Positions 18,106 through 18,588 of a stretch of 64,000 nucleotides of DNA are shown piece after piece. The translations under genes and the position numbers were made by a program. Positions within the stretch are counted from its first letter, which is position 1, and the number at the start of each line of letters is the position of its first letter. The DNA comes from Pontibacter aydingkolensis (GTDB lineage Bacteria; Bacteroidota; Bacteroidia; Cytophagales; Hymenobacteraceae). The DNA is taken from positions 124,001 through 188,000 of the forward strand of contig NZ_JAHYXK010000003.1 of assembly GCF_019443125.1 (NCBI RefSeq), in the 5' to 3' direction. The notes under the pieces were generated by a model that was given only the letters and a program-made list of their open reading frames with translations, was not told where the DNA came from and did not search any database.

Positions 18106-18179
18106 GGGGGATTAGCTCAGCTGGCTAGAGCGCTTGCATGGCATGCAAGAGGTCATCGGTTCGACTCCGATATTCTCCA
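18106..18179 (+). tRNA. tRNA-Ala(GGC)
   Basis: A 74-nt cloverleaf: acceptor GGGGGAT pairs with ATTCTCC (two G-U pairs), D arm GCTC/GAGC, anticodon stem CTTGC/GCAAG with loop ATGGCAT giving anticodon GGC, T arm ATCGG/CCGAT with TTCGACT loop, discriminator A at 18179. The 3' CCA is not fully encoded. A rho-independent hairpin follows at once. Confidence 0.95.
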
Positions 18180-18182
18180 CAA

Positions 18183-18207
18183 AAGGCAACCTATATGGTT
18201 GCCTTTT
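18183..18207 (+). terminator. Terminator of tRNA-Ala (copy 1)
   Basis: AAGGCAACC, a short TATAT loop, GGTTGCC and a T5 run, directly after the tRNA. The same hairpin recurs after the degraded tRNA copy at 18528. Confidence 0.85.
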
Positions 18208-18220
18208 TCGTTTTGTCAGC

Positions 18221-18472
18221 ATGCCATGTTATACTTACATACTTTATTCACATAAAACTGACCGTTACTATATAGGCAGCTGCCAGGATATGAACGACAG
18301 ACTTGCCAGACATAATGCTGGGTATAGTAAATCTACAAAAGCTGGTGCACCCTGGCTGTTAAAGCACATCGAGGAATATGAAACAAACTCAGAAGCCAGA
18401 AAAAGAGAAGCAGAAATAAAAAAGAAAAAAAACCGAAACTATATTGAGCAATTGATTAGCTCAACTGGCTAG
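18221..18472 (+). CDS. Small GIY-YIG nuclease ending inside a tRNA copy
   Basis: An 83-residue GIY-YIG family endonuclease, the single-domain type. The core reads YTYILYS near 4-10 followed by RYYIGS near 15-20; Arg28 (DRLARHN) and the Glu in the EYETNSEARKRE helix are likely catalytic. The ATG at 18221 is chosen because the longer frame would run through tRNA-Ala and its terminator. The last codons (ISSTG, then TAG) are encoded by a second tRNA-like sequence: the stop lies in its D-loop. The gene is thus framed by an intact tRNA and a partial tRNA copy, as expected for a homing-type nuclease that moves with the 3' part of its target (inference). Function not demonstrated. Confidence 0.8.
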   Translation: MPCYTYILYSHKTDRYYIGSCQDMNDRLARHNAGYSKSTKAGAPWLLKHIEEYETNSEARKREAEIKKKKNRNYIEQLISSTG

Positions 18473-18524
18473 AGCGTCCCGAATGCTTACGGGAAGATCA
18501 TCGGTTCGACTCCGATATTCCCCA
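18450..18524 (+). pseudogene. Degraded tRNA-Ala copy (tRNA pseudogene)
   Basis: From 18454 onward this copies tRNA-Ala almost base for base: D arm GATTAGCTCAACTGGCTAGAGC and the T arm plus 3' acceptor. The 5' acceptor strand (AATTGAT) no longer pairs with ATTCCCC, and the anticodon arm is replaced by TCCCG/CGGGA around an 8-base loop (AATGCTTA). It should not fold as a working tRNA. It overlaps the end of the nuclease gene and is followed by a copy of the tRNA terminator. Confidence 0.8.
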
Positions 18525-18527
18525 CTT

Positions 18528-18554
18528 AAAGGCAACCTATACGGTTGCCTTTTT
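18528..18554 (+). terminator. Terminator hairpin, copy 2
   Basis: AAAGGCAACC, five-base loop, GGTTGCC and T-run, duplicated from the hairpin behind the intact tRNA, with only single-base loop differences. Confidence 0.8.
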
Positions 18555-18566
18555 CGTTTTGGCAGT

Positions 18567-18588
18567 ATGTCGTTTTATACTTTAACTC
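18567..18588 (+). pseudogene. Remnant of a second GIY-YIG nuclease start
   Basis: The ATG and next codons after the second terminator copy resemble the start of the nuclease at 18221 (M-x-x-Y-T at the start, with similar flanking bases), then similarity fades as the cysK 3' end begins at 18589. Too short and diverged to be a working gene. Confidence 0.5.

Follow-up and report, generated by a model that had tools for sequence, protein, structure and literature searches.

Small GIY-YIG nucleases beside tRNA genes: a putative selfish unit with hairpin-bearing tRNA copies in Bacteroidota and neighbouring phyla

Introduction

Integrative elements with tyrosine integrases insert in tRNA genes and restore them, and RAYTs are HUH tyrosine transposases that are associated with REP palindromes. 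In phages, the GIY-YIG homing nuclease SegB is located by tRNA genes and drives tandem amplification, as described in the accessible portion of PMC13096335.

The window analysed here, a stretch of 64,000 nucleotides from Pontibacter aydingkolensis, holds a tRNA-Ala gene followed by a small GIY-YIG nuclease gene and a partial copy of the tRNA in which one arm is replaced by a hairpin. A description of such a tRNA, nuclease and hairpin unit was not found in the literature searched (preprints outside its scope, few subscription journals within it), and the accessible text of a GIY-YIG phylogenomics paper (PMC1564403) contains three mentions of tRNA, none of them on a unit of this kind. The same arrangement recurs at many tRNA genes in several phyla and looks like an undescribed selfish unit living on tRNA genes.

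Anatomy of the window locus

In a first-pass annotation the locus was read as an intact tRNA-Ala with its terminator, a GIY-YIG gene, a second tRNA copy and the same terminator again, and all of these elements were recovered by ARAGORN, Rfam, PF01541, a DNA match and reading of the sequence (Table 1). Rfam delimits the second tRNA-like stretch at 18455-18518 (31.8 bits, model 6-65), and in the DNA match the tRNA, the terminator and the start region recur together at 18454-18569 (85%, query 5-118). The last five nuclease codons and the stop (ATT AGC TCA ACT GGC TAG, 18455-18472) are made of tRNA sequence, just as had been claimed. The second nuclease start reported earlier stands as a short trace, in which the DNA match stops at about the ATG and the sequence beyond was recognised by eye. 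What the annotation lacked is that the anticodon arm of the copy is replaced by a hairpin, and its reading of the downstream copy as a plain displaced remnant does not hold, since such copies carry an arm-replacing hairpin.

The GIY-YIG frame is the longest ORF between the tRNA copies (112 codons from TTG, 83 from ATG), and no integrase gene is found within the unit. The two tRNAs are the sole Rfam matches in the window, with no intron RNA around the nuclease gene. The neighbours of the unit are a large ORF, presumably for an outer-membrane-receptor-like protein, and an ORF that we take to be cysM-like. The layout is not due to chance, because related loci repeat it. No tRNA is present within 1.5 kb on either side of the window genome's other five GIY-YIG loci. 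As a separate observation in the same genome, L048 (G000:C12:387740) holds a lone 3' tRNA fragment with a terminator, Phe-like by eye, which is perhaps the end of an island.

Table 1. Features of the tRNA-Ala and nuclease locus, in window coordinates
Feature	Position	Strand	Basis
Intact tRNA-Ala(GGC)	18106..18180	+	ARAGORN; Rfam 61.7 bits
Intrinsic-terminator-like hairpin of tRNA-Ala (GGCAACC/GGTTGCC at 18185-18203) and T run	18185..18208	+	Sequence reading
GIY-YIG nuclease gene, 83 residues	18221..18472	+	PF01541 E 3.7e-15; alignment A1
Partial tRNA-Ala copy, tRNA positions 5-75, without 5' end	18454..18525	+	Rfam; DNA match 82%
Hairpin TCCCGAATGCTTACGGGA replacing the anticodon arm of the partial tRNA-Ala copy, one stem mismatch	18477..18494	+	Pattern match (G000:C23:142477-142494), alignment
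Second terminator-like hairpin (GGCAACC/GGTTGCC at 18531-18549)	18531..18554	+	Sequence reading; DNA match
Short trace of second nuclease start	18555..18588	+	Match to 18569, remainder by eye

The nuclease and its relatives

PF01541 is the sole Pfam match of the window protein (56.4 bits against a cut-off of 22.6), and TIGR01453 reaches 20 bits, under its cut-off of 56. Across the 18 sequences of alignment A1, Y6 and E63 are invariant and Y17 and R27 are conserved in at least 90%, and these Tyr, Tyr, Arg and Glu residues are presumably the active-site residues of the GIY-YIG nuclease superfamily. The profile relatives of known structure are UPF0213 proteins (1zg2, 1ywl), followed by chains of SLX1, which is a structure-specific nuclease, and weakly by I-TevI. 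The dN/dS of the nuclease is 0.10, a value from the single unsaturated pair L018/L036, in which L036 is a second copy of the L018 array. PHROGs gave no matches to the nuclease, tblastn at 1e-5 gave none for the window protein in phages, and plasmids gave none at 1e-5; furthermore, two pattern scans of viral_contigs, which are sensitive to close relatives only, returned no relatives.

Association with tRNA genes

A survey profile built from the 18 proteins of alignment A1 matched 250 of the 395 genomes of the phylum at E<=1e-8. The clusters surveyed, 144 separate ones in 109 genomes, were drawn from the best-scoring matches and genus relatives and thus lean to this subfamily. Two 27-residue remnants (L031, L035), the second copy of the L018 array (L036), place-repeating loci (L082, L094, L101, L250, L252) and the window genome's other GIY-YIG loci, which were used as controls, were dropped before counting. 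A same-strand tRNA lies within 500 bp of the nuclease in 128 of the 144 clusters, a count slightly inflated by hairpin copies that ARAGORN seems to call as tRNAs in L027, L293, L308 and, as Cys, L235. The 15 isotypes involved are Ala (22), Asp (18), Gly (15), Ser (15), Val (12), Arg (11), Asn (11) and Pro (9), and more rarely Leu (3), Cys (3), Met (3), Lys (2), Gln (2), Thr (1) and Tyr (1). The nearest tRNA is upstream of the nuclease in 97 clusters, downstream in 26 and in the middle of the cluster in 5. At profile scores of at least 80, a same-strand tRNA is present in 126/138 clusters; five of the other 12 lie less than 130 bp from a contig end, L018 adjoins a run of N, L010 is located behind an island, L024 has a tRNA-Ala on the opposite strand, and four more remain.

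A second, named set consists of the best 80 of 191 confirmed relatives from genome_contigs and partly overlaps the first survey. Here 64 of the 80 loci are tRNA-linked, a count that becomes 60 of 67 when loci with less than 250 bp of sequence on either side are set aside. The set includes Pontibacter, Algoriphagus, Echinicola, Flagellimonas, Aquimarina, Flavobacterium, Chitinophagaceae, Spirosoma and others in Bacteroidota, and extends to Ignavibacteriota, Cloacimonadota, Calditrichota and Fidelibacterota. In a control sample of generic PF01541 genes and the window genome's other GIY-YIG genes, a tRNA is present at 6/8 loci that score at least 80 (several of them also in the survey) and at 0/25 below that score, and none of 20 gyrB/parE control loci lies by a tRNA. 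The expectation that homologues would be widespread beside tRNAs, mostly with partial copies of the same tRNA, is therefore borne out for this subfamily in both sets. The window protein belongs to a distinct subfamily of small GIY-YIG nucleases that adjoins tRNA genes of 15 isotypes.

Hairpins in the partial tRNA copies

A foreign insert of at least 10 nt is present in a partial tRNA copy in 105 of the 128 tRNA-linked clusters. Of 181 inserts, a number to which some copies contribute two rows, shuffling shows 129 to be palindromic at p<=0.05, 110 of these also at p<=0.01, which leaves 52 that do not reach the p<=0.05 level. The other 23 tRNA-linked clusters include several with hairpins in a looser alignment and five without a second copy at the threshold used, and a palindromic hairpin copy is present at 47 of the 80 named loci. 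The hairpin usually replaces or splits one tRNA arm in the neighbouring partial copies, and some copies hold two hairpins.

The sequence TCCCG occurs in 68 of 107 distinct palindromic inserts, with TCCCG...CGGGA as the main form, and other inserts read TCCG...CGGA, CCTGCC...GGCAGG, TGGCGC...GCGCCA and more. In distinct TCCCG...CGGGA inserts the first inner pair is Watson-Crick in 53/54 (null mean 37.9, maximum 45) and the second in 38/52 (null mean 14.1, maximum 25), the third not being significant (11/24; null mean 6.9, maximum 14), all by shuffles that ignore the relatedness of the inserts. The conserved outer motif together with covarying inner pairs suggests that something recognises the hairpin. 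The nuclease would be the obvious candidate, because SLX1 is among its profile relatives and other small GIY-YIG genes are flanked by repeats.

The position of the hairpin is steady in Ala (27|45), Val (28|46), Asp (mostly 50|59 or 51|60) and Arg (mostly 22|23, in the D loop), and it varies for Gly, Asn, Pro and Ser. Furthermore, on a tree of 138 nucleases, from which the tRNA-derived tail was removed, the hairpin arm changes 21 times compared to 28-41 in shuffles (87 loci). Both the steady positions and the few arm changes agree with intronless homing with an immunity mark, in which the nuclease would cut one arm of the tRNA gene and the hairpin would be a scar that leaves a non-functional, uncuttable copy. 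SegB, a free-standing GIY-YIG homing nuclease that adjoins phage tRNA genes and drives tandem amplification in the available text of PMC13096335, offers a precedent. However, the presumed target is left intact in the working tRNA, a scar would not have to draw on TCCCG...CGGGA again or preserve its base pairs, and the variable positions in four isotypes do not fit. Homing of this type is judged fairly unlikely.

Geometry of the copies and arrays

The tRNA copies are mostly truncated on the side that faces the nuclease. Where the tRNA is upstream, the copies holding 68 of the 88 palindromic inserts have the tRNA 3' end and lack the 5' end, and 1/88 has the 5' end; where it is downstream, 11 of 13 lie in copies with the 5' end and without the 3' end, and none of the 13 reaches the 3' end. 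In the named set the rule holds in 33/45 cases with an upstream tRNA (3/45 have both ends), and the mirror rule for downstream tRNAs is unsupported, all four cases being against it. In L293 and L308 the supposed tRNA-Pro seems to be a hairpin copy that was miscalled; L288 contains a pair of Lys copies, and L292 is a genuine exception.

Clusters with an upstream tRNA have 26 further palindromic inserts on the upstream side of the nuclease; for 16 of these the copy begins at tRNA position 1 and stops short. In L330, L331 and L332, three tandem 5' halves of tRNA-Ala with hairpins, 75-85 bp apart, directly precede the working tRNA. Arrays of 2-5 nuclease domains, broken copies counted, are found in 39/144 clusters, and in G386 five nearly identical units of 315 bp follow a tRNA-Asp, the stop codon of each located inside its hairpin.

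Occupied and empty sites in Pontibacter

Within the genus, the nuclease is full-length or nearly so in 14 of 50 genomes, decayed or partial matches alone are present in at least 4/50, and further remnants were seen by eye in L054, L055 and L061. A tRNA-Ala lies just upstream of the nuclease in 12 of the 14 genomes (ARAGORN); in the remaining two there is a run of N upstream (G036) or the nuclease is located behind a tRNA fragment (G015). The partial tRNA copy holds TCCCGAAnGCnTTCGGGA or a near form in 11 of 12 genus loci, the hairpin being lost in L011. The empty tRNA site that the first-pass annotation proposed to look for was found by eye in G049 and G030, where the tRNA and its terminator are directly followed by the cysM-like gene.

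The tRNA-Ala is identical over 75 bases in 48 of the 50 genomes, the others being G023 (97%) and G036 (assembly gap). The idea that the downstream half is the original 3' half of the tRNA, raised by its better acceptor-stem pairing, was rejected on these grounds, the intact tRNA being the normal gene. In three genomes a tRNA-Ala fragment from position 29 or 30 precedes the nuclease (L053/L010 in G015, L065/L021 in G047, L078/L022 in G028) and the whole tRNA-Ala lies 15-21 kb from this nuclease-side fragment, which gives the impression that an island has integrated between the whole tRNA and the nuclease unit.

Nuclease identity within the genus is 63-77%. Across 14 genomes the distances between nucleases are correlated with those between gyrB genes (Mantel r 0.43, p 0.0005), so recent movement within the genus is not evident. 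Nearest neighbours differ between the nuclease and gyrB for several genomes, the window genome included. The history of the nuclease in the genus looks mainly like vertical descent with loss and decay. The insertion into the tRNA with restoration that had been proposed at the outset fits the truncation geometry.

Isotype fidelity and transfer between hosts

On the nuclease tree, the tRNA isotype changes 33 times compared to 83-98 in shuffles (126 loci), and the host family 62 times compared to 93-107 (138 loci). A nuclease lineage thus mostly stays with a single isotype even where the host family changes, and switches now and then. On the tree of the named set, isotype needs 8 changes and so does host phylum (shuffle minima 19 and 16, respectively); the two are confounded there, since Asp units predominate in the phyla other than Bacteroidota. 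Several of the Cloacimonadota proteins share 66-76% identity with the Asp units of G282, G386 and the like, which is about the level within the genus Pontibacter, and this similarity, between sequences from metagenome assemblies, hints at possible transfer between phyla.

Such isotype fidelity would also be expected if the nuclease were tied to its tRNA at the RNA level, in processing, stress control or addiction, with the hairpin copies serving as RNA elements or decoys unable to become tRNA. Arms are replaced by arms, which may keep a folded RNA, and the arrays of hairpin-bearing 5' halves that precede the tRNA in L330-L332 are in line with this role. On the other hand, most loci have the hairpin copy on the 3' side of the gene and others have it on the 5' side, which suits a role in DNA better, and the nuclease, absent or decayed in most genomes of the genus, is dispensable. 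A regulatory function of this sort is regarded as improbable.

Palindromes and repeats outside the unit

TCCCGA...TCGGGA palindromes are common in many surveyed genomes, also outside tRNA contexts. G351, G319 and G408 have 60, 62 and 42 of them, respectively, compared to 0, 0 and 3 for a reversed control pattern; some of those in G351 lie within longer repeats, and G408 is palindrome-rich yet has no nuclease match at 1e-8. In the window genome three places match the hairpin with at most one mismatch, two of them outside tRNAs by eye. Confinement of the hairpin to the unit is ruled out by these two matches and by the many in other genomes. In addition, the other small GIY-YIG genes of these genomes are repeat-flanked (16/22 beyond the 99% null). 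Two copies of REP-like repeats (TGTCAT..., GTCATTGCGAG...) flank small GIY-YIG genes of other subfamilies at L001, L354, L357, L364, L371, L373 and L379, and TGTCAT or GTCAT is present in the flanking repeats at several loci (L001, L357, L371, L373).

The abundance of palindromes in several genomes, like the islands that split the same tRNA within the genus, would be compatible with a passive origin, in which tRNA loci are hot spots of duplication and integration where a nuclease gene was trapped and ordinary genomic palindromes landed in dead copies. Against this stand the 15 isotypes, the several phyla, the steady arm positions and the truncation rule. Moreover, perfect stems of at least 7 occur at 7.6 per kb in the copies and at 0.58 per kb in distal control DNA, a comparison that favours the copies, which were chosen for their insert. 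Passive accumulation is considered very improbable.

A possible life cycle of the unit

The reading preferred here, held tentatively at a little under an even chance, is that the locus is a selfish unit of the chromosome, about 300-450 bp long, which resides in tRNA genes and restores them, the hairpin being a putative cis-acting site. On insertion into a tRNA gene the unit would have carried along the half that was missing, so that one boundary would be a seamless working tRNA and the other the displaced half, where the hairpin would be the cis-acting DNA structure of the unit. Insertion of this kind could account for the way the copies are truncated, for a working tRNA that shows no seam and for the arrays. 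The nuclease may act on the hairpin as a hairpin or a cruciform, and the repair of breaks there through tRNA homology would bring the unit into tRNA genes and lead to tandem expansion. The role of the hairpin is the least certain step.

Several observations count against this occupation and restoration of tRNA genes. Genomes with and without the unit share the same intact tRNA, which stays cuttable if it is the target. TCCCGA...TCGGGA palindromes are common in many of the genomes, also outside tRNAs and in some genomes without a nuclease match at 1e-8, G408 among them. The agreement between the nuclease and gyrB is moderate, and at least 4 of the 50 genus genomes have only decayed or partial matches. 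Furthermore, 52 of the 181 inserts are non-palindromic, and in the named set isotype and phylum are confounded and the mirror rule is unsupported.

A broader and somewhat unlikely reading would see a new mobile unit of Bacteroidota and neighbouring phyla, in which a GIY-YIG nuclease has as its putative cis-acting site a DNA hairpin within copies of a tRNA arm. The unit would spread from one tRNA gene to another, and along them, through insertions that restore the tRNA and leave a hairpin as a mark in the displaced half, and it may be one branch of a wider group of small GIY-YIG nucleases that mobilise palindromic repeats, as RAYTs are thought to do for REPs.

To conclude, what is new here is that the second tRNA copy is not a plain remnant, one arm being replaced or split by a palindrome. 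Many Bacteroidota proteins named 'GIY-YIG nuclease family' may belong to one recognisable unit with a clear anatomical rule, which would explain protein tails that read like translated tRNA. The free-standing homing nucleases would gain a member that is chromosomal and tied to tRNAs, and the palindromic repeats of these genomes a candidate for the enzyme behind them. Because the hairpin keeps a steady position in several lineages, the specificity of the nuclease is directly testable in vitro.

Comparison with known systems

Like integrative elements that target tRNA genes, the unit has an intact tRNA at one end and a partial copy at the other; it differs in a size of about 0.3 kb, the lack of an integrase-sized ORF, copies that are often 5' truncated, the hairpin and the tandem arrays. 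A group I intron with a homing nuclease differs in its intron RNA, which is not found at the window locus.

SegB and the free-standing GIY-YIG homing endonucleases of T-even phages resemble the unit as free-standing genes by tRNAs of many isotypes and in tandem amplification, according to the accessible portions of PMC13096335 and PMC2988022. In contrast to the Seg type, the unit described here is chromosomal, encodes 83 residues and has neither a PHROGs match nor close phage or viral relatives. Phage carriage is not seen for the window nuclease, and empty and occupied alleles both exist in the genus. The partial tRNA copies with arm-replacing hairpins are a further difference, being unmentioned in the portions of PMC13096335 and PMC2988022 available.

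GIY-YIG proteins of the UPF0213 and SLX1 types are the closest sequences of known structure to the nuclease, and the other small GIY-YIG genes of these genomes differ from it in not lying by tRNAs (0/25). With REP/RAYT systems the unit has in common that a small nuclease gene lies close to short palindromes and that further such palindromes may occur in the genome; here, however, the enzyme is of the GIY-YIG type and not an HUH transposase, and the repeat is a copy of a tRNA.
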